From contig ONPG01000013.1 in the NCBI GenBank assembly GCA_900319645.1, positions 1-59,937 on the forward strand: DNA of 59,937 bases, in the 5' to 3' direction. This document shows, one piece after another, positions 2,926 to 51,941 of this stretch. The notes beneath the pieces are model-generated. The model did not search any database, was not told where the DNA came from, and worked only from the letters and a program-made list of their open reading frames with translations. The stretch is from an uncultured Bacteroidales bacterium. Lineage in GTDB: Bacteria; Bacteroidota; Bacteroidia; Bacteroidales; Paludibacteraceae. A program made the translations under genes and the position numbers. Position 1 is the stretch's first letter. Each line of letters starts with the position of its first letter.

Positions 2926-3936
2926 TCAATGATAAAACCGTGTGCCGGGCAGACAGGAGAAGGAATCTATCACGCCCACTACCCTTTCTTCGTCGTCCAA
3001 GACAATCAACGTGTGGATTGAGTGATGGTTCATCTTCTCGCCGGCTTCGACGATCTTGGCGTCCTTGCTGATGGTCTTCGGGTTGGTGGACATAATCGCC
3101 GAAACAGGAGTGTTGAAGAAAGATTGCCCGAGGCGTTGCATCGCACGACGAATATCTCCATCCGTGATAATTCCTGCCAAAATTCCCTTTGTCCTTTGTG
3201 CTTCGTCCCTTTGTACCTTCTCAATGACAATACCTATACCCAATGTGCCTTTGGTAACAATCTCTATGGCTTCCGACATAGGCTGTTCAGGCGAAAGGAA
3301 GGGCAGGTTCTCCGTGAACATCACATCTTCCACTTTTGCCAGCAGTTTGCGTCCGAGGTCTCCTCCGGGGTGGAGCATCGCAAAATCAGTCGGTTGGAAA
3401 TGGTTGGCTTCCACCAAGGCGCAAGCGAGCGCGTCGCCCAACGCGAGTGTAGCGGTAGTCGAGGCTGTAGGAACCAGATTCAGCGGATCCGCCTCCGACT
3501 CCACAGAGATATTCAGATGCACTTCGGAATATTTCGCCAGCAACGATTCCTTATTGGAAGACATACCTACAATAGGAATCCGTTTTGCCTGGATAATCGG
3601 CAGGAAGCGAACCAGTTCCTCGGTTGCGCCGGAGTAAGAGATTGCCAGAACAAGATCGTCGGGACCTAACATTCCCAGGTCTCCGTGATACGCATCCAGG
3701 GGATTGAGGAAGAACGCAGGAGTACCCGTACTCGCCAGCGTGGCTGCTATCTTCGAGCCTATGTGCCCGGACTTGCCGACGCCGGTTACCACCACTTTGC
3801 CTTTGCACGCCCTGATCATCTCTACCGCGCGGAGGAAATTGTCGTCTATGCGTTCTTCCAACGCCATAACCGCATTTGCTTCGCGAATGAGGCAATCCTT
3901 GGCTCGTGCTACTATTTGGGTTTTGTTTTCTGTCAT
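2926..3936 (-). CDS. kdsD: D-arabinose-5-phosphate isomerase (KdsD/KpsF family)
   Basis: It interconverts ribulose-5-phosphate and arabinose-5-phosphate, the first committed step toward Kdo for lipopolysaccharide or capsule. The N-terminal half is a SIS domain (GVGKSGHIGSKIA; SYSGATEE) and the C-terminal half is a pair of CBS domains (GIITDGDIRRA; HTLIVLD). The length of about 336 residues is typical. I prefer the ATG at 3936 (MTENKTQIV); an in-frame ATG at 3960 lies inside a palindromic repeat that also occurs in non-coding places. Between the CBS strands GIGIVIE and GILAGIITDGD the protein carries the extra segment VQRDEAQRTKG, encoded by a repeat described separately. kdsC lies in the same operon, which supports a Kdo role. 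Confidence 0.92.
   Translation of the reverse strand: MTENKTQIVARAKDCLIREANAVMALEERIDDNFLRAVEMIRACKGKVVVTGVGKSGHIGSKIAATLASTGTPAFFLNPLDAYHGDLGMLGPDDLVLAISYSGATEELVRFLPIIQAKRIPIVGMSSNKESLLAKYSEVHLNISVESEADPLNLVPTASTTATLALGDALACALVEANHFQPTDFAMLHPGGDLGRKLLAKVEDVMFTENLPFLSPEQPMSEAIEIVTKGTLGIGIVIEKVQRDEAQRTKGILAGIITDGDIRRAMQRLGQSFFNTPVSAIMSTNPKTISKDAKIVEAGEKMNHHSIHTLIVLDDEERVVGVIDSFSCLPGTRFYH
3185..3217 (-). repeat. 33-base frame-locked insertion repeat inside kdsD
   Basis: The minus strand reads as heptads close to ACAAAGG and encodes K-VQRDEAQRTK-G. It is identical at 29 of 33 positions to a segment of rimO at 31760-31792 and sits in the same codon phase there. A more diverged relative is in ispD (5360-5391). 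Confidence 0.8.
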
Positions 3937-3951
3937 TTGTAATCGGGTTTG

Positions 3952-3971
3952 ATCCGCCATGCATGGCGGAT
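3952..3971. repeat. 20-base perfect palindrome ATCCGCCATGCATGGCGGAT
   Basis: It lies one base past the stop codon of the minus-strand glycosyltransferase and before kdsD. It belongs to a family with 6461-6480, 18468-18487 and 25914-25933. Arm bases differ between copies but mostly remain paired. Confidence 0.75.
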
Positions 3972-3972
3972 A

Positions 3973-5106
3973 CTATGATTTGATATTCAGGAATGCGCGG
4001 GTCATGTTCGACCAAGCGTATTTGGTTTTCTCTTTTTTCAGACATTCCGTATAGGCGGCTTGCCGGTTATTGGTGAAATAATCCAACAGGTCTTCGGCAA
4101 TAGCATCTGCTGTGGGTTCGCAGGCATAGCCCATCTGATGATCCGGCACTATCTCCGCCAGACCGCCCACGTTCGTCACCAGCATCGGTTTCTCGAAATG
4201 GAATGCCACTTGTGTCACGCCGCTCTGTGTTGCGGATTTATAGGGCTGCACGATGAGGTCAGCCGCTCCGAAATACTTGCGCAAGTCGGCGTCGGGGATA
4301 AACTCGTTGCGCAGGATCACCCGTTCTGTGAGACCGTTTGCCTCTATCTGCGCACGATATTTGTCTTCGTGTTCGTAGAACTCACCTGCAATAATCAGTT
4401 GCAGATCAGGCAGTTGGACTTTCACTTTGCCAAACGCATCGAGCAACAGATCCAGTCCTTTGTAAGCACGTACGAGCCCGAAGAACAACATATATTCCTT
4501 CTTCGGGTCAAGTCCAAGCGCCTTGCATGCCTCCGCTTTTGCCATCCGTTCGCCGTAATGGTCGTAAATGGGATGCGGAGAGGCTTTGGCGTTGGCTTTG
4601 GCATTGGCTTTGGCTATTTTCTCGATATCTTTTACCACACTCTCCGAGAGAGCCACAAAGCCGTTTTGGGACTTCACGAAATAAGGCGCGAAGAGTTTGT
4701 CGAGGATGGAAGGCTCATGCGGCATCATATTGTGTACCAGCGCGATCGCTTTCGTTTTGCCGTTCCGGCGTGCAATACGCGAGACGAGTCCGTAGGCGGG
4801 CGCAAAGAACGCCATCCAGTAACAGCATATCAGCAGATCGGGAGCCGCCTTGCGAATTGCGTTTCCCACGCGAATCCAGTTGAACGGATTGCAGGAATTG
4901 AGTTCACGGCGAATCGTGAGATCCTTAGGTGCCTGCTCGGACGAATACTGGGTTTTGCCCGGAAAAAGGAAAGAGGGATATTGGAGCGTGAAAGTCCATA
5001 GTTCGACCTCATGTCCTTCGGACAAGAACTGGCGTGCAAGCCTTTCGTTGAAAGCAGCAAGTCCGCCACGGTAAGGATATGTTGTGCCTAAAAGGATGAT
5101 TTTCAT
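3973..5106 (-). CDS. Glycosyltransferase, GT4-like (GT-B fold)
   Basis: About 377 residues. The N-terminus MKIILLGTTYPYRGG with GGLAAFNERLA resembles the glycine-rich acceptor-side motif of GT4 enzymes. The C-terminal half has the nucleotide-sugar site region (LFFGLVRAYKGLDLLLDAF; FEKPMLVTNVGGLAEIV). It probably adds a sugar to lipopolysaccharide or another surface glycan on the cytoplasmic side. The start is ATG 5106; the open frame extends to a TTG at 5112. Residues around 163-174 form an AKANAKANAKA linker encoded by a six-base tandem repeat, just before the SPHPIYD segment. It sits between ispD-like and kdsD genes in one operon. The acceptor and sugar cannot be told from sequence. Confidence 0.85.
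   Translation of the reverse strand: MKIILLGTTYPYRGGLAAFNERLARQFLSEGHEVELWTFTLQYPSFLFPGKTQYSSEQAPKDLTIRRELNSCNPFNWIRVGNAIRKAAPDLLICCYWMAFFAPAYGLVSRIARRNGKTKAIALVHNMMPHEPSILDKLFAPYFVKSQNGFVALSESVVKDIEKIAKANAKANAKASPHPIYDHYGERMAKAEACKALGLDPKKEYMLFFGLVRAYKGLDLLLDAFGKVKVQLPDLQLIIAGEFYEHEDKYRAQIEANGLTERVILRNEFIPDADLRKYFGAADLIVQPYKSATQSGVTQVAFHFEKPMLVTNVGGLAEIVPDHQMGYACEPTADAIAEDLLDYFTNNRQAAYTECLKKEKTKYAWSNMTRAFLNIKS
4582..4617 (-). repeat. Six-base GGCNTT tandem repeat inside the glycosyltransferase gene
   Basis: Six units (GGCTTT, GGCGTT, GGCTTT, GGCATT, GGCTTT, GGCTAT on the plus strand) encode alternating Ala with Asn or Lys on the minus strand. Because the unit is six bases, copy-number changes keep the frame. 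The same repeat is at 26568-26597 and 43861-43896. Confidence 0.8.
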
Positions 5107-5129: not shown

Positions 5130-5822
5130 CTACAAGTCTTCGCGGTACGTTATTTTACGGTTTTGTTCATCTCCCTCCACAATAAAAACGGGATGCCTCG
5201 GTTCGTATTTGCGTACGATACCAACATCGTCCGTAGCGATTATTCCGTCTTCGGCAAGGGCCTTCATATACGCTCCGGAGACCAACTCAAACCGGAAAGC
5301 CTGTGGTGTCTGCGCGCGCATGTAAGCCGCCCTTTCCGGAACCGCACTCACAATCGCCTCTTTTATACCTTGTACCTCTTCCCTTTGTACCTTATACAGG
5401 GTATCGGTAACAGGAACCGCCACGGTAACCGCTTCGTGCTCTTCGAGCGCTTTGGCTATGTCCGAGAGGATACGCTGGCTGACGAAGGGGCGAGCCGCAT
5501 CGTGGAGCCAAAGGTTGAGTGCTTCGGACCGGTCCATATACGCCAAAATGGCGTGCCAGGAACTCTCCCAGCGCTCGTTGCCTCCGGGGATGATAGTGGT
5601 CACTTTTTCCCAGGAATTACGCTCCACCAAGGCTTTCGCTTCGTCCATCCATTCGGGGTGCATCACAACGGCAATCTCGTCAATACAAGACGCCTGTTCA
5701 AATGCGTCGATGGCGTGCTCCAGGATCGAGCGTCCGTCCGCAAGCGGCAAGAGCTGTTTGGGCGTGGAGCCTCCCACTCTGCTGCCTATTCCTCCGGCTA
5801 ATATAACTGCTATGTTGGTCAT
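5130..5822 (-). CDS. ispD: IspD/TarI family cytidylyltransferase
   Basis: About 230 residues that transfer CMP to a polyol phosphate. Visible motifs are ILAGGIGSRVGGSTPKQ (nucleotide binding), LHDAARPFV, TDTLYK and RAQTPQAF, all typical of 2-C-methylerythritol 4-phosphate cytidylyltransferase (isoprenoid synthesis). The LAGGIGSR form of the first motif is also common in TarI-type ribitol-5-phosphate cytidylyltransferases, and the surface-sugar operon makes that role possible. The start is ATG 5822; a GTG at 5831 falls at the edge of an 11-base repeat. Residues around 145-153 (VQREEVQGIK) are an extra loop encoded by a relative of the kdsD/rimO insertion repeat. The family is secure; the choice of substrate is not. 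Confidence 0.85.
   Translation of the reverse strand: MTNIAVILAGGIGSRVGGSTPKQLLPLADGRSILEHAIDAFEQASCIDEIAVVMHPEWMDEAKALVERNSWEKVTTIIPGGNERWESSWHAILAYMDRSEALNLWLHDAARPFVSQRILSDIAKALEEHEAVTVAVPVTDTLYKVQREEVQGIKEAIVSAVPERAAYMRAQTPQAFRFELVSGAYMKALAEDGIIATDDVGIVRKYEPRHPVFIVEGDEQNRKITYREDL
5360..5391 (-). repeat. Insertion repeat (kdsD/rimO type) inside ispD
   Basis: The minus strand encodes K-VQREEVQGIK in the same codon phase as the kdsD copy. The first 12 bases match the kdsD copy exactly; overall about 25 of 32 positions agree. It lies in a loop between TDTLYK and the RAQTPQAF motif. Confidence 0.65.
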
Positions 5823-5830
5823 CTTTCTCA

Positions 5831-5858
5831 CTCGTTTGTCTCTCGTTTGTCTCTCGTT
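5831..5858. repeat. 11-base tandem repeat (CTCGTTTGTCT), 2.5 copies
   Basis: Direct repeats with exact 11-base spacing directly upstream of ispD on the minus strand. They are adjacent to a second, unrelated 11-base repeat. Confidence 0.75.
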
Positions 5859-5869
5859 CTTGGTCCGTT

Positions 5870-5912
5870 AATCACCCATGAATCACCCATGAATCACCCA
5901 TGAATCACCCAT
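5870..5912. repeat. 11-base tandem repeat (AATCACCCATG), about 4 copies
   Basis: Three perfect units plus a near-complete fourth; the last overlaps the kdsC stop codon (5905-5907). The same unit is repeated five times at 27618-27672. Confidence 0.85.
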
Positions 5913-25937: not shown

Positions 25938-27284
25938 TTATTCCTTCTCGCGAATGAGGAATACGGATGCGGCACCAAGGATGAGGAGAACACCGGCAAC
26001 CACCAACATTCCTGCTTGCACGTGTGCGCACACATATTTAAGGAGTACTCCTCCGCAGAGGGCTGCGACAATCTGCGGAATACAAATCGTGCAGTTGAAG
26101 AGACCGAGGTAATAGCCCATGTTGCCTCCCTTGATGGCGTTGGTGACGATCGTGAACGGCAGTGCCAACATAGCCGCCCAAGCAGCACCGATGAGTGCAT
26201 AGCTAAGCCAGAGCACGTACGGGTTGGAGACAAAGAAGATCGAGATAAAGCCGACTGCGCCAACGATCAGGGAAACGGCATAAGCACCTTTGTTGCCTGT
26301 TTTATGCTCGAGCCAAGGCAGAACCATCGCCCAGAGGAGCGATCCGACCGCCTGAACAGCGAAGCAGAGCCCCACCCAGTTGCCGGCAGTCTGGAAAGCT
26401 TCGTGCGCAGCGGAAGCGCCGTCCCAGCCGTAGCAGTTGGATGCTATAGCTCCGTTGGAATAGGTCCACATATACATGAAAGCCGCCCAGCAGAAGAACT
26501 GCACGAGACCAACAGTCCAGAAAGCGGAAGGAGCTTCTTGAAGCAGGGTAATGAAACCTTTCTCCTCGGCGTTGGCGTTGGCTTTGGCGTTGGCGTCAAT
26601 ACCGTGGAACTCAGCGTACTCCTCAGGATTCATCTCCTTGACGGTAGCAAACGTATAGAGACAGCAGAGGATGAGTATAGCCGCTCCGGCATAGAAAGAC
26701 CATTTGACAGAATCCGGGATAACACCCTCGGGAGCTGTATTGGCTATACCGATCCAAGTAAAGAAAATGGGGAAGACGTAGCCAACCAGCGAGCCAGCGT
26801 TGCAGAGCGCCGATTGAATGGCATAGGCAGTACCCTTCTGCTCCTCGTTGACCATATCGCCGACCATCATCTTGAAGGGCTGCATGGCTATATTAATAGA
26901 GGTGTCGAGGAACATGAGCGAGAAAAGCCCGAACCACATCGCGGCATTCAAGCCGAGGAAGGCCGCCTGGGTGAACGTGAAGTTACCTGCATTGGGCAAG
27001 AGTAGCATCACAGCCACCGCAATGAGCGCGCCCACGAGCAGATAGGGTTTACGACGACCGAGACGTGTCCAGGTCTTATCGGAATACTTACCCACCAAAG
27101 GCTGAACGATCATGCCCATGAGCGGCGGAAGGATCCAGAAGAAACTAAGCGTGTGGGGGTCAGCGCCAAGTGTGGCGAAGATGCGCGAGATATTGGCACT
27201 CTGAAGGGCGTACGCAATCTGGACGCCGAAGAAGCCAAAGCTCAAATTAAAGAGTTGCGCAAAAGATAAATTTTGTTTCTGCAT
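25938..27284 (-). CDS. MFS transporter, maltose/sucrose (SLC45/GPH-like) type
   Basis: 448 residues with about 12 hydrophobic segments. It starts QNLSFAQLFNLSFGFFGVQ, then PPLMGMIVQPLVGKYSDKTW and GRRKPYLLVGA, which are hallmarks of the SLC45-like maltose transporters in Bacteroidota sus loci. It would import maltose or maltodextrin from the periplasm by cation symport. The cytoplasmic loop near residues 229-238 contains DANAKANANAEE, encoded by the GGCNTT six-base repeat. It is the first gene of the sus operon, with a good promoter. Confidence 0.92.
   Translation of the reverse strand: MQKQNLSFAQLFNLSFGFFGVQIAYALQSANISRIFATLGADPHTLSFFWILPPLMGMIVQPLVGKYSDKTWTRLGRRKPYLLVGALIAVAVMLLLPNAGNFTFTQAAFLGLNAAMWFGLFSLMFLDTSINIAMQPFKMMVGDMVNEEQKGTAYAIQSALCNAGSLVGYVFPIFFTWIGIANTAPEGVIPDSVKWSFYAGAAILILCCLYTFATVKEMNPEEYAEFHGIDANAKANANAEEKGFITLLQEAPSAFWTVGLVQFFCWAAFMYMWTYSNGAIASNCYGWDGASAAHEAFQTAGNWVGLCFAVQAVGSLLWAMVLPWLEHKTGNKGAYAVSLIVGAVGFISIFFVSNPYVLWLSYALIGAAWAAMLALPFTIVTNAIKGGNMGYYLGLFNCTICIPQIVAALCGGVLLKYVCAHVQAGMLVVAGVLLILGAASVFLIREKE
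26568..26597 (-). repeat. GGCNTT hexamer repeat inside the MFS gene
   Basis: Five units (GGCGTT, GGCGTT, GGCTTT, GGCGTT, GGCGTC) encode the ANAKANA linker in a cytoplasmic loop. It is the same repeat as in the glycosyltransferase at 4582. Confidence 0.8.
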
Positions 27285-27617: not shown

Positions 27618-27672
27618 AATCACCCATGAATCACCCATGAATCACCCATGTATCACCCATGTATCACCCATG
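27618..27672. repeat. 11-base tandem repeat (AATCACCCATG/TATCACCCATG), 5 copies
   Basis: Three AATCACCCATG units then two TATCACCCATG units. The first three are identical to the repeat behind kdsC at 5870-5912. Confidence 0.88.
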
Positions 27673-27746
27673 AAAAAGGGCTAAAAAGTAGATATTCCGA
27701 ATCCGATTCGGCGTAAAAGAAGAAGGGACAGGAGAGGAGGAAAAAA

Positions 27747-28167: not shown

Positions 28168-28397
28168 CGAGATATCGAAAAGCAGGGAAACGAGATAGCG
28201 AGAGGCAGAAAAGCGAGATAGCGAGAGGCAGAAAAGCGAGATAGCGAAAGGCAGGGAAACGAGATTGCGAGAGGCAGAAAAGCGAGATAGCGAGAGGCAG
28301 AAAAGCGAGATAGCGAGAGGCAGGGAAACGAGATAGCGAGAGGCAGAAAAGCGAGATATCGAAAGGCAGGGAAACGAAATAGTGAAAGACAAGAAGC
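28168..28397. repeat. 23-base tandem array, 10 copies, in the recQ leader
   Basis: Units start at 28168, 28191, 28214 and every 23 bases to 28375. The consensus is CGAGATAGCGAGAGGCAG followed by AAAAG or GGAAA. Two unit variants are interspersed. There are no spacers, so it is not a CRISPR array. It ends about 58 bases before the recQ ATG. Confidence 0.9.
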
Positions 28398-28454: not shown

Positions 28455-30638
28455 ATGGAAGTAACACACGAGCAATTAGTAGAAGCGCTGCGGACGTATT
28501 TCGGATTCGACACGTTCAAAGGCAATCAGGAGGCAATCATCCGAAATGTGATGAATGGCCACGACACCTTTGTATTGATGCCAACCGGCGGCGGGAAAAG
28601 TCTTTGTTATCAACTGCCATCCTTGGTGATGGAAGGTGTAGCGATCGTGATCTCGCCTTTGATAGCTCTGATGAAGAACCAAGTGGACGCTATGCGCAAC
28701 TACTCGGAAGAAGCCGGCGTAGCGCATTTCATCAATTCGTCTCTCAGCCGCGCTGAGATCAACGCTGTGAAAGACGACGTAGTAAGCGGCAAGACGAAGT
28801 TGCTGTATCTGGCTCCAGAGAGTCTGCAAAAGGCAGAGAACGTGGACTTTCTGAAAGGCGTGAAGATCTCGTTCTACGCCGTGGATGAGGCCCATTGTAT
28901 CTCGGAATGGGGTCACGATTTCCGTCCTGAATACAGCCACATCCGTTCGATGGTTCAGCGTATCGGGAAAGCTCCGATAATCGCCTTGACCGCGACCGCC
29001 ACACCGAAAGTGCAGAAAGATATTCAGAAGAACTTAGGAATGCCCGATGCGACGGTATTCAAGAGCAGTTTCAACAGGTCGAACCTCTATTATGAAGTTC
29101 GTCCGAAGACCGCAGATGTGGATAAGGATCTGATACGTTTCATCCGCGGAATGGAAGGCAAGAGCGGAATCGTTTATTGCCTTGCTCGCAAGGAAGTGGA
29201 AGATCTGGCACAAGTGCTTCAAGTAAACGGAATAAGCGCGCGTGCATATCACGCGGGTATGGACGCTCCTACTCGTAGTGCGACGCAGGATGCGTTCCTG
29301 ATGGAAGAGATACAGGTGATTGTAGCGACGATCGCTTTCGGAATGGGAATCGACAAGCCGGACGTACGGTTTGTGGTACACTACGACATTCCGAAGAGCC
29401 TGGAAGGCTATTATCAGGAGACAGGTCGTGCGGGTCGTGACGGCGGCGAAGGGCAATGTATCTGCTACTACTCGCCGGACGACATCGAACGTCTGAGACG
29501 TTTCCAGCAAGGCAAGACCCCGAAAGAGATAGGTATCGGCAATCAGTTGCTCTTTGAGACACAAAGCTACGCGGAGAGTACTATCTGCCGCCGCAAGCTG
29601 CTGCTTCATTATTTCGGCGAGGAATATGAGGAGGACAACTGCGGCAACTGCGACAACTGCCGCAAGGTATATAAACAAGTGGACGCGAGCGAGTTGCTTC
29701 AACTGGCATTGGAGACGATCCAACAGGTGAACGAGAAGCAGAAAGCCGAGCATATTGTAGATATTCTGCACGGCAACAAGACCGCCGAAGTGGTAAGTTA
29801 CCACCACGACGAGCTGGAGAACTTCGGCGCAGCCAGCGACGAGGAAGAGAGCACTCTGCACGCCATCATCCGCAGAGCGTTGTTAGTGGGAATGTTGAAG
29901 AAAGACGTGGATTCTTACGGCGACCTGAAGTTGACGAGCGACGGCAAGAAATTTATCCGCAAGCCGACCAAGTTCGAGGTTCCGATAGAGGTTCACGACG
30001 AAGAGGACGATATTATGGAAGGCGCAGGTGCCACCTGTGCAGCAGCCGACGAGGTGTTGTTCTCCATACTGAAAGATATCCGCCGCAAAGAAGCGAAGAA
30101 GAGCGACGTACCTCCGTTTGTGATCTTCCAAGACCCGAGTCTGGAGGCGATGGCGACCACCTACCCGATCACGATGGAAGAGCTGCTGACGATTCCGGGC
30201 GTAGGCGTAGCGAAAGCCAAACGCTACGGCGACGAGTTCCTGCGCGTTATTAAGGAATATGTGGAGGAGAACGAGATTATCCGCCCGGAAGACCTGCGGA
30301 TCCGTACAGTAGCCAAGAAATCCACCCGCAAGAAACAGATCATTCAGGCGATAGACCGCCGTGTAGATCTGGACGACCTGGCAGAAAGCAACGGCATGTC
30401 GATGGAAGAGATGCTGGACGAGCTGGAGGCGATCGTGTTCAGCGGGACAAAGATCAATATCAACTATTTCATTCAGGAAGTGGTGGACCCGGACGAGGAA
30501 GAAGAGATATACGAGTATTTCAAGAACGCCGACAACGACAGCATCAAAGCTGCGATGGAGGAACTGGGCGAGGATTACTACGACGAGATACACGTAAGGC
30601 TCGTGCGAATCAAGTTCCATTGCGATTTGGGGAATTGA
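28455..30638 (+). CDS. recQ: ATP-dependent DNA helicase RecQ
   Basis: 727 residues, a 3'-5' helicase for recombination and replication repair. Helicase domain 1 has Walker A PTGGGKSLCYQLP and the box DEAHCISEWGHDFRPEY. Helicase domain 2 has GIVYCLARKEVE and HYDIPKSLEGYYQETGRAGRDG. A zinc-binding RQC part follows (CRRKLLLHYFGE; NCGNCDNC), then an HRDC domain (ITMEELLTIPGVGVAKAKRYG). After this comes a roughly 120-residue extension with a helix-turn-helix-like DLDDLAESNGMSMEEMLDEL and an acidic segment. The leader is long and repeat-filled. Confidence 0.96.
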   Translation: MEVTHEQLVEALRTYFGFDTFKGNQEAIIRNVMNGHDTFVLMPTGGGKSLCYQLPSLVMEGVAIVISPLIALMKNQVDAMRNYSEEAGVAHFINSSLSRAEINAVKDDVVSGKTKLLYLAPESLQKAENVDFLKGVKISFYAVDEAHCISEWGHDFRPEYSHIRSMVQRIGKAPIIALTATATPKVQKDIQKNLGMPDATVFKSSFNRSNLYYEVRPKTADVDKDLIRFIRGMEGKSGIVYCLARKEVEDLAQVLQVNGISARAYHAGMDAPTRSATQDAFLMEEIQVIVATIAFGMGIDKPDVRFVVHYDIPKSLEGYYQETGRAGRDGGEGQCICYYSPDDIERLRRFQQGKTPKEIGIGNQLLFETQSYAESTICRRKLLLHYFGEEYEEDNCGNCDNCRKVYKQVDASELLQLALETIQQVNEKQKAEHIVDILHGNKTAEVVSYHHDELENFGAASDEEESTLHAIIRRALLVGMLKKDVDSYGDLKLTSDGKKFIRKPTKFEVPIEVHDEEDDIMEGAGATCAAADEVLFSILKDIRRKEAKKSDVPPFVIFQDPSLEAMATTYPITMEELLTIPGVGVAKAKRYGDEFLRVIKEYVEENEIIRPEDLRIRTVAKKSTRKKQIIQAIDRRVDLDDLAESNGMSMEEMLDELEAIVFSGTKININYFIQEVVDPDEEEEIYEYFKNADNDSIKAAMEELGEDYYDEIHVRLVRIKFHCDLGN

Positions 30639-30675: not shown

Positions 30676-31134
30676 ATGAGAATACAAAGCTTTGCAAAAG
30701 TATTGGTTCTGCTGATAGCCGGGGTGGTTTTGATGAGTTGCGCCCCAAACAAAATGAAAGAAGTCATGACATTTGAGATGTATGGCGATTGTATGGTTAT
30801 CGGTCCTTGGGAAGGCCCAATACCCTCCAAAGGAACTTCTATCATTCAAGTATTAAGACCCACGAAGAATGCAGAGAAAGGCTATTTGCAAGCATACAAT
30901 TTCCAATGGGAAACCGATTTTTCATACAAAGGAGACAGCATAGTATTTTCAACTCCCCGCCAAATCAAGCAAAATGCTTACGAAAAGCAAGTATTCAAGG
31001 CAAAAGGATGGATTTGCGGAGAAGACATATATATCCAATATGAATCGTCGGCAGAAGGAGTTGAAGGAACAATCCATTGTGAAGTATCAGGAAAAAAGAC
31101 AAACAATCCAAATAATGAATCTTCAATAGAGTGA
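30676..31134 (+). CDS. Small uncharacterised lipoprotein
   Basis: 152 residues that I do not recognise. A signal segment (VLVLLIAGVVLMSC) ends in a lipobox cysteine near residue 22. The mature part is short, with PWEGPIPSKGTSIIQVLRP and a polar C-terminus (KKTNNPNNESS). Codon use looks more AT-rich than in recQ or rimO, suggesting a newer arrival. Its TGA overlaps the GTG start of rimO (GTGA), so translation of the two may be coupled. No TAnnTTTG box was seen in the 37-base gap after recQ. Confidence 0.7.
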   Translation: MRIQSFAKVLVLLIAGVVLMSCAPNKMKEVMTFEMYGDCMVIGPWEGPIPSKGTSIIQVLRPTKNAEKGYLQAYNFQWETDFSYKGDSIVFSTPRQIKQNAYEKQVFKAKGWICGEDIYIQYESSAEGVEGTIHCEVSGKKTNNPNNESSIE

Positions 31135-32501
31135 GAAAAGGAGAGATAGATTTCATAACACTGGGATGCTCGAAGAATCTGGTAGATGCAGAGCGTGTGA
31201 TGCGGCAGTTGGAGGCGGCAGGTTGGAAATGTGTACATGATCCGGCAGAGCCGAAAGGGGAGATCTGCGTGATCAACACCTGCGGATTCATCGGCGATGC
31301 GAAGGAAGAGAGTATCAATATGATCCTGCAGATGGCGGAGCGGAAGAAAAAAGGGAAGCTCAGGAAACTGATCGTAATGGGCTGTCTGAGTGAGCGTTAC
31401 CGGGCGGAGTTGGAAGCGGAATTGCCGGAAGTGGATGCCTACTATGGTAAATTCGATTTTGAGAACCTCACCCTATCCCTCCCCACAAGGGAGGGGACAA
31501 ATAACACCTCAAATGACGCTATATGCTGCAAATCCTACGAACGGCATTTGACAACGCCGAAACATTACGCGTATCTGAAGATATCCGAGGGCTGTAACCG
31601 GATGTGCTCGTATTGCGCTATCCCGCTGATAACCGGCCGCCACACCAGCCGGCCGAAAGAAGAGATACTGGATGAGGTCAGATGGCTGGTGAGCCAAGGC
31701 GTGAAGGAAGTGAATGTGATCGCCCAGGACCTGAGCAGTTACGGGTTGGACCTGAATAAGGGACAAAGTGACGAAGGACAAAGGACAAAGGTCCATTTGC
31801 TGCCAGAGTTGATAGACGAGATGGCGCAGATAGAAGGCGTGGAGTGGATCCGGCTACATTACGCCTACCCGACCGACTTCCCTCAAGACCTGCTCGATGT
31901 TATGTTTAAACATAACAATGTGTGCAAGTATCTGGACATCGCTTTGCAACATTGTACGGACCATATGTTAGGTCTAATGAGACGGCATATAACACGCGCG
32001 GAACAAGATGCGTTGATCCGGACGATCCGCGAGAAAGTGCCGGGAATATGTATCCGCACGACGCTGATGGTAGGTCACCCGGGCGAGACGGAAGAGGATT
32101 TCGAGGAGTTGAAAGAATGGGTAAGAGAGATGCGATTCGACCGAATGGGAGCGTTCGCGTACTCGGACGAAGAAGGGACTTACGCCAACAAACATTACAA
32201 AGACGATATTCCGCAGGAAGTCAAAGAAGCTCGTTTAGCCGAACTGATGGCCATTCAGCAGGAGATAAGCGGCGAGCTGATGCAAGCCAAAACAGGCACG
32301 ACCGAACGCGTTATCATCGACAGGAAAGAAGGTGATTACTATATCGGACGCACCCAATACGACAGCCCGGAAGTGGATTGCGAAGTGATTCTAAGTACCA
32401 AGGGACAAAGTACCAAGTACAAAGTGGGCGAGTTCTATGATGTGAAGATAACCCGCGCGGAGGAATTTGACCTTTACGGGGAACTGAAAACTGAAAACTG
32501 A
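31131..32501 (+). CDS. rimO: Ribosomal protein S12 methylthiotransferase RimO, with repeat-encoded insertions
   Basis: 456 residues, a radical-SAM enzyme that methylthiolates an Asp of ribosomal protein S12. It has the N-terminal UPF0004 domain (ITLGCSKNLVDAE, NTCGFI, VMGCLSERY), the radical SAM cluster CNRMCSYC near residue 155, and a C-terminal TRAM domain. The start is GTG 31131, overlapping the previous stop codon. The gene carries several extra segments: about residues 112-133, with a CCCTCCC/GGGAGGG hairpin in the DNA; KGQSDEGQRTK near 210; TKGQSTKYK in the TRAM domain; and a C-terminal KTEN encoded by heptad repeat. All conserved catalytic motifs are intact. Confidence 0.94.
   Translation: MRKGEIDFITLGCSKNLVDAERVMRQLEAAGWKCVHDPAEPKGEICVINTCGFIGDAKEESINMILQMAERKKKGKLRKLIVMGCLSERYRAELEAELPEVDAYYGKFDFENLTLSLPTREGTNNTSNDAICCKSYERHLTTPKHYAYLKISEGCNRMCSYCAIPLITGRHTSRPKEEILDEVRWLVSQGVKEVNVIAQDLSSYGLDLNKGQSDEGQRTKVHLLPELIDEMAQIEGVEWIRLHYAYPTDFPQDLLDVMFKHNNVCKYLDIALQHCTDHMLGLMRRHITRAEQDALIRTIREKVPGICIRTTLMVGHPGETEEDFEELKEWVREMRFDRMGAFAYSDEEGTYANKHYKDDIPQEVKEARLAELMAIQQEISGELMQAKTGTTERVIIDRKEGDYYIGRTQYDSPEVDCEVILSTKGQSTKYKVGEFYDVKITRAEEFDLYGELKTEN
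31477..31495. repeat. G/C-rich inverted repeat inside rimO
   Basis: CCCTCCC, five bases, GGGAGGG in the variable stretch between YYGKFDFENL and TTPKHYAYLKISEGC. It is in frame and looks like an insertion into coding sequence. Confidence 0.6.
31760..31792 (+). repeat. 33-base frame-locked insertion repeat inside rimO (copy A)
   Basis: Encodes K-GQSDEGQRTK-V. It matches the kdsD copy at 29 of 33 bases with the same codon phase. It sits in a loop between DLSSYGLDL and LLPELIDEM. Confidence 0.8.
32394..32424 (+). repeat. Related insertion repeat inside rimO (copy B)
   Basis: Units AGTACCAA, GGGACAAA, GTACCAA, GTACAAA encode STKGQSTKYK in the TRAM domain. AAG-GGA-CAA-AGT is identical, in phase, to copy A. 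Confidence 0.65.
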
Positions 32502-32508
32502 AAGTTGA
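32482..32508. repeat. Heptad repeat (CTGAAAA) forming the 3' end of rimO
   Basis: It begins inside the last codons (E-L-K-T-E-N-stop), so the repeat provides both the C-terminal residues and the TGA. Degenerate units continue toward the HU gene. Confidence 0.75.
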
Positions 32509-32528
32509 AAATTCAGAATTAACGATAT

Positions 32529-42745: not shown

Positions 42746-43858
42746 ATGCTTCGTATCCTCGTTATCTCCGATCCGCCTGCTGCGCCCGGCTATCTGCCCC
42801 GGTTGCGATACCTGTGCGACTACCTGGTGCGACAGGGACACGTCGTCACGCTTCTCACCGAGGCGTACCAGCCTTTGGATTTCCGCCACTCCTACCCCAT
42901 CGAGACGATCGGGATGTACAGCGGCACGACGGCCGACTGGGCAGTCAAGACAGCCTGGACACTGCTCTCCGACTGGCACAACCGCGTCTTTGCGCAGCGT
43001 GCCATCAAGCGCCTGGAGGGAACCCAATGGGATGTGGTGCTCTGTACCGCATTCTCGGATTTTCCACTGGGAGCCGCCCAACGGATTGCGGACCACTACC
43101 ACCTACCACTGGTCTGCGACATCCGCGACCTGGATGAACAAGTCGAAGACTCGAAATACCAATATCACCACCGCACATGGTGGACGATGCCTTTCCGGCG
43201 CTTGTATCGGGCGGTCCATCTTCGCCGGCGTAACAATGTCCTGCGGGCGGCTGACGCCGTCACCACCGTCTCGCCTTGGCACGCGGAGTTCATCCGGCAG
43301 TTCAATCCCAACGTCAGCTTAGCCTATAACGGCTACGACGAAACTCAGTTCTATCCCGGAACGTCCTCCCTTTCCTCCTTCACCATTAGCTATATCGGTT
43401 CGCTTTTCGATTGGCAGCAGCCCTGGTTGGAACAACTCAAAGCGATTATCCGTGACCTGCAACTGCCGGTCGTGTTCGATTGCCACACCCCGTCGAACAA
43501 CCCTGTTCCCCACGACCGACTGGGTGATGCCATTCGCAGCAGTTCCATTATGTTGGTGCTCACCAATCCCAATACGCACGGAATGCTGACCACTAAGTTC
43601 TACGAGGCTTTAGGATGTGCCAAACCTGTGCTCTGTATTCCTTCCGACCAAGGCTCGTTGGCGGAACTCATTCGCTATACGAATGCCGGCATCGCCACCG
43701 ACGACCCGCAACTTATCCGTGCGTTTATCGAAGACCAATACCGCGAATGGCAAACCAACGGCTTCACCCGCCAACCGGTCGTCCACCGCGAAGAGTTCTC
43801 CCGTGAGACTCAAAGCCGGCAGATCGAGAAAGCCCTGAAACAAGCGGTGGGATTTTAG
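42746..43858 (+). CDS. Glycosyltransferase, GT4-like
   Basis: 370 residues from ATG 42746. The N-terminal half (MLRILVISDPPAAPGYLPRLRYLCDYL) and C-terminal half (ISYIGSLFDWQQPWLEQL; TTKFYEALGCAKPVLCIP) match the two Rossmann halves of GT-B enzymes, including the late donor-binding glutamate in KFYEALG. It probably extends the polysaccharide begun by the WecA-like enzyme. The open frame extends upstream into the deacetylase gene, but that part is not homologous. A GGCNTT hexamer repeat begins two bases after its stop codon. Confidence 0.85.
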   Translation: MLRILVISDPPAAPGYLPRLRYLCDYLVRQGHVVTLLTEAYQPLDFRHSYPIETIGMYSGTTADWAVKTAWTLLSDWHNRVFAQRAIKRLEGTQWDVVLCTAFSDFPLGAAQRIADHYHLPLVCDIRDLDEQVEDSKYQYHHRTWWTMPFRRLYRAVHLRRRNNVLRAADAVTTVSPWHAEFIRQFNPNVSLAYNGYDETQFYPGTSSLSSFTISYIGSLFDWQQPWLEQLKAIIRDLQLPVVFDCHTPSNNPVPHDRLGDAIRSSSIMLVLTNPNTHGMLTTKFYEALGCAKPVLCIPSDQGSLAELIRYTNAGIATDDPQLIRAFIEDQYREWQTNGFTRQPVVHREEFSRETQSRQIEKALKQAVGF

Positions 43859-43860
43859 TT

Positions 43861-43902
43861 GGCGTTGGCATTGGCGTTGGCGTTGGCTTGGGCTTTGGCC
43901 GT
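43861..43902. repeat. GGCNTT hexamer repeat right behind a stop codon
   Basis: GGCGTT, GGCATT, GGCGTT, GGCGTT, GGCTTG, GGCTTT and a degenerate unit, two bases after the TAG of the glycosyltransferase. This is the non-coding copy of the repeat in the genes at 4582 and 26568. Confidence 0.8.
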
Positions 43903-43916
43903 TGGCGCTTATTAAA

Positions 43917-49905: not shown

Positions 49906-51078
49906 ATGAAAAAAATTCTTCTTTTTTGCGCTGCTATGGTAGCAGCCTTCAACGCAAACGCAGCTATCACCGAGATGTCCTGCGCACAAGCCAAACAGTA
50001 CACGCTGGATAACCTCCAGGCTGGCGAGACGGGTACCGACTCCGTAGCCGTCACCGGTTACGTTACCTACACCAACGGAACCGTCAGCCGTGGTCAGCAG
50101 ACCTTCTGGCTTGATGACGAGAAAGGTAACACCCAGACCTTCCAGGCGTACTGGTGCAACCTGCCGACCGAAGAGGCCTTGAATGTCGGCGACAAAGTGG
50201 TTATCCGAGGTTTTCTGATGAACTACAACGGCACCACCGCCGAGATGAAAAACGGCGACACCGAGATCATCGAACGCGTAACCGTAAAACGTGACACCAT
50301 CGAGACAAGCGTTTGCGAAGCTATCGAAGAGGGTGAAGCACTCAACGACATGGAGATTACCGACGATTTCTTTATCGTGGAAGGCGTAGTAGCCAACGTC
50401 GGCTCGCAGATGAACCAGTACAAACAAGAGACGTTCTCGCTGGTTTGCGAAAGCAACGAGAAAGAGCTGAAAGTGTATAATATCCTGATGAAGGACAGTA
50501 TCGCCGCTGCTGTGGGCGACAAAGTGAGTGTATTCGGCAAGCTCCAGAACTACCACAACACCATCGAGATCATCAGCGGTAACGCAGAAGTGCTGGAGAA
50601 AGGCGACGTGCAGATCGACACCCTGACCGTGACCGTAGCCGAGGCTGTAGCAGCCGGTAAAGCACTGGAGAAAGGCAAGACCTCTGTAGCCGTTTATGTC
50701 GTAGTGGGCTACAACGACAGTATTGCCTTTGCGTTCAACGAGAGCTATAAAAATATGTCGTTCTATATGTGCGACGACCTGGCTAATCCTTCCTACGAGT
50801 TCGAGGCATACAAAGCATCGACCGAAGTGGACATCCCCGTTGGCACCAAAGTAGCCGTAATGGGTAACCTCTACCACTACTACAAAGAAGCCGATGGTGA
50901 CAAACCAGAGATTGATTTGGTAGAGATCAAGGACGGAACCGCTGTTATCGTAAACGACGAAGAAGCCATCGAGAACGTATCCAGCGAGAACAAGGCTGTT
51001 AAGGCTATCGAGAACGGACAAGTGGTTATTATCCGCAACGGTGTACGCTACAACGCTCTCGGTGTAGAAGTAAAGTAA
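49906..51078 (+). CDS. Secreted triple OB-fold-like protein with T9SS sorting tail
   Basis: 390 residues. The signal peptide ends FNANA. Three similar beta modules follow (about 25-125, 130-235, 240-345). Each has a V-x-G-Y/V-V start, a FWL/FSL/FYM-type strand and a late GDKV or GTKV turn, consistent with repeated OB-folds. The end, IENGQVVIIRNGVRYNALGVEVK split around I-I, resembles a type IX C-terminal sorting domain and matches the tail of the starch-binding protein (YN-x-x-G-x-x-V-K/R). No catalytic motif was recognised. Being exported beside an OB-fold lipoprotein and a nuclease, it could bind extracellular nucleic acid; that is inference. Confidence 0.78.
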   Translation: MKKILLFCAAMVAAFNANAAITEMSCAQAKQYTLDNLQAGETGTDSVAVTGYVTYTNGTVSRGQQTFWLDDEKGNTQTFQAYWCNLPTEEALNVGDKVVIRGFLMNYNGTTAEMKNGDTEIIERVTVKRDTIETSVCEAIEEGEALNDMEITDDFFIVEGVVANVGSQMNQYKQETFSLVCESNEKELKVYNILMKDSIAAAVGDKVSVFGKLQNYHNTIEIISGNAEVLEKGDVQIDTLTVTVAEAVAAGKALEKGKTSVAVYVVVGYNDSIAFAFNESYKNMSFYMCDDLANPSYEFEAYKASTEVDIPVGTKVAVMGNLYHYYKEADGDKPEIDLVEIKDGTAVIVNDEEAIENVSSENKAVKAIENGQVVIIRNGVRYNALGVEVK

Positions 51079-51081
51079 AAA

Positions 51082-51102
51082 CTGAAAACTGAAAAGTGAA
51101 AA
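51082..51102. repeat. Seven-base tandem repeat (CTGAAAA/GTGAAAA), 3 copies
   Basis: It starts three bases after a TAA stop codon. The third unit, GTGAAAA, contains the GTG start codon of the next gene. Confidence 0.78.
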
Positions 51103-51941
51103 GTAAACTTTTCTTTATAGCTGCTGTGTTGTGTCTGTGCCCGCTGAGTGCGGGTGCAGGCACTAACCTGCAGGTGTATTACGATTTCGGCTCGGTTGGC
51201 ACCGCCTGCGCCAACCAGCGATCGAACCGCGTCACAACCACATTGGAGTTGTTCTATCCCGACGCGTGGGGAAGCACCTTCGCCTTCGTGGATCTGGACT
51301 ACGCCATTCACCCTAACGACCCGAAAAACACACCGTTCCTTGCCTATAGCGAGATAGCCAGGTGCTTGAATTTCTGGCAAAAAACCGCCGCCAAAGACCT
51401 GAGCGTACAAGTGGAGTACAACGGAGGATTCGGTATCGGCAAACTAACTGACAACACGTTCTACGGCTACGGCATCAATCACGCTGCACTAGTGGGATTG
51501 AACTACTGCCTGCACACCGCCGACTACAAGAACATCTTCAACATCGAGCTGCTCTTCAAATACGTGGTGGACGATTATAATATGTGGCAGGTGAAGAAAT
51601 CCGGCAAATGGGTCAACCAATCCGGCAACCTCGTTCCGCTGCAGTTCACCTTTGTCTGGGGCTGCGACGATTTCTGTACCGCACCCGGACTGCGCTTCTC
51701 CGGATTCTTGGATATCTGGGGACAGAAACAAAGCGTTTACGACTACCGGACGGACACGTGGACCGACCCCACTAAACAATCGTTTGTCCTCATCAGCGAG
51801 CCGCAACTGTGGTACAACATCGGCAGGTGGTTCAAATGCCCTCACCTGAATATCGGCACAGAAATCGAGTTCAGTTACAATTTCGCCGGCAAAGGCTTTA
51901 TGTGCAATCCCTGCCTGGGTATTAAATGGTGCTTTGATTAA
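51096..51941 (+). CDS. Tsx/DUF5020-like outer-membrane barrel protein
   Basis: 281 residues. A signal peptide (KLFFIAAVLCLCPLSAGA) is followed by alternating beta-strand sequence (LQVYYDFG; TTTLELFYPDAWGSTFAFVDLDY) and an aromatic-rich end (CLGIKWCFD). This resembles the DUF5020 family, which I recall as related to the Tsx nucleoside channel; I could not test that here. The start is GTG 51096, inside a heptad repeat; no ATG lies before the signal peptide. If the Tsx relation holds, it would pass nucleosides across the outer membrane, fitting the nuclease locus. Confidence 0.7.
   Translation: MKSKLFFIAAVLCLCPLSAGAGTNLQVYYDFGSVGTACANQRSNRVTTTLELFYPDAWGSTFAFVDLDYAIHPNDPKNTPFLAYSEIARCLNFWQKTAAKDLSVQVEYNGGFGIGKLTDNTFYGYGINHAALVGLNYCLHTADYKNIFNIELLFKYVVDDYNMWQVKKSGKWVNQSGNLVPLQFTFVWGCDDFCTAPGLRFSGFLDIWGQKQSVYDYRTDTWTDPTKQSFVLISEPQLWYNIGRWFKCPHLNIGTEIEFSYNFAGKGFMCNPCLGIKWCFD

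Follow-up and report, generated by a model that had tools for sequence, protein, structure and literature searches.

How does the same short DNA sequence come to lie in frame within several unrelated genes of one genome, among them those for the enzymes KdsD, IspD and RimO? The question is raised by contig ONPG01000013.1 of an uncultured Bacteroidales bacterium (Paludibacteraceae), of which the whole analysed stretch of 59,937 nt is referred to as the window. kdsD (2926–3960, minus strand) encodes a KpsF/GutQ family sugar-phosphate isomerase that matches TIGR00393 above its cut-off and whose C-terminal part matches CBS-domain structures; within that part, from residue 248, it carries KVQRDEAQRTKG, encoded at 3185–3217 (minus strand). 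A second copy lies in rimO (31131–32501, plus strand; TIGR01125 above its cut-off) at 31760–31792, in a loop (L2) that reads GLDL-NKGQSDEGQRTKV-HLLPEL. A diverged copy at 5360–5391 (minus strand), reading YKVQREEVQGIKEA, is found in an ispD-like gene (5130–5831, minus strand), whose top NCBIfam match, TIGR00453, scores 161.1 bits, under its cut-off of 181.3. rimO has repeat-like sequence at four places, all on the plus strand: in addition to L2, there is a further copy in loop L3 (32394–32424, other codon phase, STKGQSTKYK), a GC-rich hairpin repeat in loop L1 (31477–31495, CCCTCCC-CACAA-GGGAGGG, in frame as LSLPTREGT) and an ACTGAAA heptad array at the gene end (32482–32511), which encodes the final residues and the stop codon (ELKTEN-stop).

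The original prediction, made from the window alone, held that these sites share one inserted 33-base element. Its count of 29 identical bases out of 33 between the kdsD and L2 copies is confirmed, as is, on recount, that of 25 out of 32 between ispD and kdsD. The L3 copy, taken to be a looser relative, in fact agrees with the kdsD copy at 25 of 31 bases and is no looser than ispD. All four copies were said to follow an AAG codon in one frame. This is true of kdsD, ispD and L2, which start at codon position 2, the codon that follows being the one after AAG, but the L3 copy, aligned in the common DNA register, begins at codon position 0 and is preceded by AAG only after a slide of one unit. The element was also described as heptad-based and non-palindromic, and we indeed find no hairpin: a search for inverted repeats of at least 3 bases in the kdsD and L2 copies gave none, the ispD and L3 copies have one 4-bp inverted pair each, and the four copies fold with minimum free energies of 0 to −4 kcal/mol. 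It is not, however, a pure heptad array, given that its four units with ACAAAG-like cores, about 30 bp in total, are spaced 8-7-7.

The genome-wide search proposed with the prediction shows that the element is widely dispersed. A 31-base IUPAC pattern, allowing up to 3 mismatches, matches 36 places in the 2.64-Mb genome; at the same tolerance the reversed pattern matches none, and neither does a 7-7-8 pattern in which the 8-spacing is shifted to the last interval. In an 860-kb sample (the window plus further stretches of the same genome), 13 of 22 ACAAAG chains are spaced exactly 8-7-7, none has the 8 last, and 17 lie in sense orientation within coding sequences (CDS). With at most 2 mismatches, the shorter word RACAAAGGACAAAGG has 176 matches and its reverse 19. 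Of the sampled genomes, 42 of 61 in the genus (this one included) contain the 8-7-7 pattern, as against 0 of 40 belonging to other families of the order; the 33-mer family is spread through the genome and, with matching this strict, confined to the genus. Copies from one genome barely exceed copies from different genomes in likeness (identity 0.818 versus 0.809, based on 120 of 134 matched 31-mers, with 0 of 200 label shuffles reaching it), so the ACAAAG consensus is common to the genus and not freshly amplified in each species. Within-genome homogenisation is present but tiny.

The segments could be insertions or ancestral loop sequence. In KdsD, for which 24 of 30 fetched loci were aligned, 13 of the 18 other congeneric rows covering the region have a short form, the remaining five (G021, G004, G022, G001 and G007) have other extra sequence, and the segment was sought in four aligned rows from other families and was absent from all four. 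The shortest form of IspD is seen in 12 of 24 other rows, and its loop contains AAAGGTG heptads in G030, G015, G006 and G036 and other repeats in G005 and G017. The solved structures of IspD (1vpa) and RimO (4jc0) are gapped at the insert sites. Neither an ancestral loop in distant orthologues nor absence of the 33-mer from the rest of the genome was found, and the short forms in KdsD, IspD and RimO orthologues support the predicted lineage-specific insertion; the inserts are lacking in the small number of aligned orthologues that come from other genera. An unbiased census of the genome's own insertions of at least 6 aa, relative to G028 (a congener without the element) and G062 (a genome from another family), finds clear period-7 sequence in 2 of 20 and 3 of 10, two of these five in one gene. 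Lag 7 has the highest z in both comparisons (2.7 and 2.8; insertions in the opposite direction, 0.7 and −1.5). With 5 of 30 clearly period-7, heptads explain a minority of indels.

RimO provides the most detailed record. The comparison covered 93 distinct genes, of which 30 are loci of the genus and the rest come from named metagenome-assembled genomes (MAGs), 63–84% identical, that are presumably congeners or near relatives. The relatives found through RimO are mostly uncultured Paludibacteraceae or Bacteroidales MAGs, and rumen or gut samples appear in many of their titles. L2 is empty (≤30 nt, usually 24–27) in 59 of the 93 genes, filled in 33 and scored as neither in one; 23 of the 33 filled loops carry 24–36 bp beyond the usual 24-nt empty site (range 18–111). 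Identity at lag 7 exceeds that of codon-shuffled sequence in L3 (0.593 versus 0.306, 62 loops, z 32), L2 (0.433 versus 0.279, 33 loops, z 15) and L1 (0.308 versus 0.261, 78 loops, z 10), with 0 of 200 shuffles reaching the observed value at any of them, and is 0.232 in 255 other RimO stretches. L1 also has a lag-9 excess (z 5.3), as do the control stretches (z 6.0). On a RimO tree built without the loops, many inner branches of which are weak, L2 requires at least 10 gain or loss changes and at least 27 changes of insert class, and L3 at least 38 class changes; the classes were assigned by regular expression, include ‘other’ and ‘short’, and contain some mislabels.

Close pairs of RimO genes illustrate the turnover. 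Between L073 and L067, L2 has gained 30 bp; the L3 loop is the same in both, and L1 differs. L2 is swapped between L072 and L157 (94.7% identical), in which L1 and L3 are near-identical, and between L149 and L177, in which the L3 loop is identical and L1 different. L160 and L168 (97.8% identical) differ by an extra insert of approximately 45 bp inside a hairpin-type L2, and the L3 arrays of L064 and L173, from sister species, differ in unit number. The loops thus differ between close species, and repetitive DNA appears to have been turned into protein again and again. The placement of the sites in loops, as predicted, is borne out for RimO by an AlphaFold model (mean pLDDT 85), in which they fall outside helices and strands, but only in part with low confidence: L1 and L2 include stretches below 50 (122–130 and 211–219), whereas L3 is confidently modelled between strands. 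A further low-pLDDT stretch (160–169) is not an insert. The predicted tolerance of in-frame sequence at these sites is probable, with the correction that the same loops take other repeats in other species. GC-rich repeats of the hairpin type (PTPNPSLKG or LPTREGT) lie in frame in L1 of the window (31477–31495; −14.5 kcal/mol) and in L2 of L144, L152, L160 and L177. In L2 of L168, L072 and L173, an element of about 45 bp with the core GATCGAGCA(G/A)AGCTCTTCACC is nested between the arms of a hairpin insert.

The genes that host the element read it in different ways. For 30 of the 36 copies, retrieved with flanking sequence, coding status was called by a dicodon score trained on the same genome. 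Twenty-four lie in called ORFs, 21 in sense and 3 in antisense, and the other six are unclear or non-coding; three of the 24 calls (L031, L047 and L054) are near a gene start and less certain, and could be upstream. Pfam or NCBIfam profiles identify among the hosts Dxs, chorismate synthase (AroC), a xylulokinase-like FGGY kinase (XylB), a DsbD-like protein, an OPT transporter, GH43, a SpoU methylase, RsgA, RibD and QueA. Many hosts are core enzymes, examples being Dxs, AroC, RibD, QueA and RsgA. The profile match spans the element in eight of the ten, the exceptions being GH43, where the element separates two domains, and the DsbD-like protein, where it precedes the domain that was matched. 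In a Pfam scan of 10 host proteins, L045 and L050 were without a family. rimO (L032, L036) and RsgA (L049, L060) hold two copies each, and RsgA has, besides a second element, a long chain that is in frame (VLSDQGQGTKDDGRWTKDKGQWTKDNG).

A single insertion frame had been predicted, and 16 of the 21 sense copies do share one frame, but all three forward frames (16/3/2) and antisense readings occur. The antisense readings are hydrophobic segments of the SFVLCTLSLCT type: judged by eye, L044 and L053 supply the hydrophobic stretch of signal peptides (MRKILSFVLCTLSLCTLSAA and MKKISLYFVLCTFVLLMVSCGG), and that of L050 is N-terminal and hydrophobic, its sense reading being doubtful because the antisense frame scores higher. 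Since a single DNA sequence is read in more than one frame and from either strand, the unit is DNA and not peptide. The one-frame preference is not explained by blind insertion and may come from gene-to-gene copying or a preferred junction.

The predicted 33-base element thus exists as a family, but it is just one of many period-7 families. Among array periods of 2–15 in the CDS of the 860-kb sample, 7 is the commonest (28 arrays in 759 kb; 0.0 in codon-shuffled sequence), though it is no whole number of codons, and 31 period-7 arrays occur in 102 kb outside CDS (period 11: 33). Unit types include AAAGTCG, AATGGAC, AATTATC and ACTGAAA. The same census found no period-7 array, in CDS or outside, in 200 kb each of G028 and G062. 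Scanned across gene borders, 26 period-7 arrays lie in CDS, 21 are intergenic and 34 straddle gene edges; they are hence denser outside genes. Of all possible heptads, half contain no stop on either strand, and such units make up 11 of the 26 CDS arrays, 6 of the 21 intergenic and 1 of the 34 edge-straddling arrays. A stop filter, with stop-free units in genes and others outside, was discarded, as the difference between CDS and intergenic arrays is just mild. Of 578 called genes, 74 overlap a 16-mer that is repeated at 4 or more places far apart, a count that includes ordinary paralogous words, and the word TCCCCACAAGGGAGGG of the L1 hairpin repeat occurs at 5 places in the 860-kb sample, 2 of them in CDS. 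AAAGTCR arrays are present in 26 of 37 genomes of the genus versus 1 of 24 outside, and AAAGGTK arrays in 23 of 37 versus 2 of 24. Such heptad pools are thus typical of the genus, although not wholly confined to it. For AAAGTC the reversed pattern does not serve as a null, because it reads as the CTGAAA family, which is common here. Outside the genus, G067, G070 and G084 have a few AAAGTCA or AAAGGTG arrays (6, 17 and 14 matches).

The window contains other repeats as well. Heptad arrays of the ACTGAAA/AAAGTGA type sit at gene ends (32482–32511 and 51072–51107), the first with the rimO stop codon itself inside it. An 11-bp unit (AATCACCCATG) is in tandem at 5870–5912 and 27618–27674, and period 11 is the commonest intergenic array period in the 860-kb sample (33 arrays, with 5 in CDS). 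Hexamer repeats of the GGCTTT/GGCGTT type at 4582–4615 and 26568–26596, with an array also at 43858–43907, are a further in-gene family that reads AKANAKAN in glycosyltransferase-like and MFS-like ORFs (named by eye), and related words occur at several places. A 23/69-bp tandem repeat (28168–28388) lies upstream of a helicase-like ORF (28455–30638, recQ-like by eye) and overlaps an ORF of doubtful coding value.

Families found in RimO, KdsD or IspD (with approximately 100 nt of flank) are commoner genome-wide in the genomes that carry them there (p = 0.012, 0.007 and 0.0001 for three families with 4, 5 and 9 carriers among 34 genomes, in counts that include the copy itself). An insert tends to be of the kind that its genome holds in abundance, and some rich genomes are without their own family in these three proteins (G034, 43 ACAAAG matches; G007, 146 AAAGTCG matches). 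Taken together, the genomes hold dispersed copies of irregular spacing that reside in frame in core genes, and loop inserts that recur, are interchangeable and turn over fast. We consider it probable (roughly 0.7) that a resident pool of period-7 DNA copies short patches around the genome and that in-frame, stop-free copies survive in tolerant loops. Under this model, a fast-changing pool of short repeats would copy patches, most often of 24–36 bp, between places in the genome, and insertion would be blind to coding. A copy would survive only if it is in frame, without stops and in a loop, or if its antisense reading falls at a place that calls for hydrophobic residues, for example the core of a signal peptide. 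Heptads of the ACAAAG and AAAGTCG types contain no stop in any of the six frames and could for this reason persist in genes. More tentatively, copying might proceed by template switching during replication or repair at short homology among the repeats, 7-nt slippage might change the unit number, and a dedicated reverse transcriptase or Y1 transposase might not be needed. Pairwise junctions in the nearest genomes are mostly too diverged to define, target-site duplication included.

Other explanations were weighed against copying from a pool. The dispersed copies and fixed structure would also fit an element moved by a protein, such as a Y1/RAYT transposase, a reverse transcriptase or another enzyme, in the manner of REP-like elements; the genome has one Y1_Tnp match (E 2.5e-6), and RVT_1 is present in the repeat-rich G015, G018, G008 and G030. 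However, RVT_1 was sought and not found in the genome's own draft or in the repeat-rich G034, G022, G035, G007 and G029, nor was Y1_Tnp found in the repeat-rich G034, G021, G015 and G026, although drafts can hide genes. Y1_Tnp is also frequent in other families, which do not have these repeats, and the elements form no hairpins. We regard a protein-moved element as unlikely, and rejected these two enzymes as the common machinery because each is missing from several rich genomes in a simple comparison of presence and absence in drafts. An artefact of assembly or binning might be suspected given that most of the genomes are metagenome-assembled, but the inserts are in frame in assemblies from different projects and one congener from the same collection lacks the repeats, which makes it hardly credible.

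Each loop array could instead have grown in place by 7-nt slippage, with the shared units reflecting shared composition. A heptanucleotide bias in bacteria has reportedly been described by Mrazek et al. Heptanucleotides are the commonest longer class of simple sequence repeat (SSR) in many bacteria, and a polymerase-footprint idea of slippage has been raised (PMC4679880, PMC4692102). The varying unit number in sister L3 arrays also fits slippage. Local slippage alone nevertheless leaves unexplained why 36 places share the irregular 8-7-7 spacing and none the 7-7-8 order; close pairs also hold unrelated families at L2, and the loop type tends to follow the family abundant in the genome. We find it improbable as the whole account. 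Selection on the peptide, with VQRDKVQSTK as a functional tag for binding or localisation gained by many proteins, would suit the frame shared by 16 of 21 sense copies. The same DNA is, however, read in the other two frames and as antisense hydrophobic segments, and in other species the same loop is filled by many unrelated peptides. Conservation at codon position 3 (0.866) comes close to that at positions 1 and 2 (0.915 and 0.872), although choosing the sequences by a DNA pattern biases them towards this outcome. Frame diversity and antisense use weigh against the tag, and we rate it as very improbable.

Copying from a heptad pool resembles several known systems without matching any of them. 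Cyanobacterial STRRs are tandem heptanucleotide repeats that are likewise dispersed in genomes, but they are chiefly non-coding. Rickettsia palindromic elements (RPEs) are palindromic, as their name says. RPEs are small repeats of about 150 bp in several families, which have inserted into unrelated ORFs without breaking the frame and persist there as translated peptides (PMC10969869). The parallel with RPEs drawn in the original prediction applies to the in-frame insertion in unrelated genes, but not to palindromy or length: the inserts here are mostly 24–36 bp, tandem-heptad and non-hairpin, and from one close species to another a loop may hold a different insert in place of the first. Heptanucleotide SSRs or LSSRs (TAACTGA in Beggiatoaceae, GGGAATC-type in Xanthomonas and Nostoc, with some examples in Bacteroidetes) are dispersed 7-nt arrays and mostly intergenic (PMC4679880, PMC4692102), and where TAACTGA sets fall in ORFs, most are terminal or belong to hypothetical proteins (PMC4679880). 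They share the 7-nt period, though the element here has one 8-spacing; the present case differs in that interior loops of core enzymes are filled and one family has a fixed 8-7-7 form. PARCEL repeats, too, are read as protein, and they are in flux both inside a genome and from one genome to another, but they have dyad symmetry and are described mainly from membrane and lipoprotein ORFs (PMC2996958), whereas here heptads occupy core-enzyme loops. In open-licence literature, covered by partly very general searches, we found no report of in-frame heptad elements in Bacteroidales core genes and no description of heptads making up the interior loops of core enzymes.

Repeats of a kind known as intergenic have here entered the interiors of core enzymes many times over. 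The 93 RimO genes with three loops each are natural replicates, so segment gain, loop tolerance and the favoured 7-nt unit become directly testable. Alignments and annotations of these rumen bacteria should be used with caution, given that they contain repeat-derived loops. We give even odds to the wider reading that this is a genus in which a genome-wide process continually writes heptad DNA into coding sequences, with loops and some signal peptides drawn from a shared pool. If so, the heptads would not be a set of isolated insertions but a standing mutational source of new protein segments.
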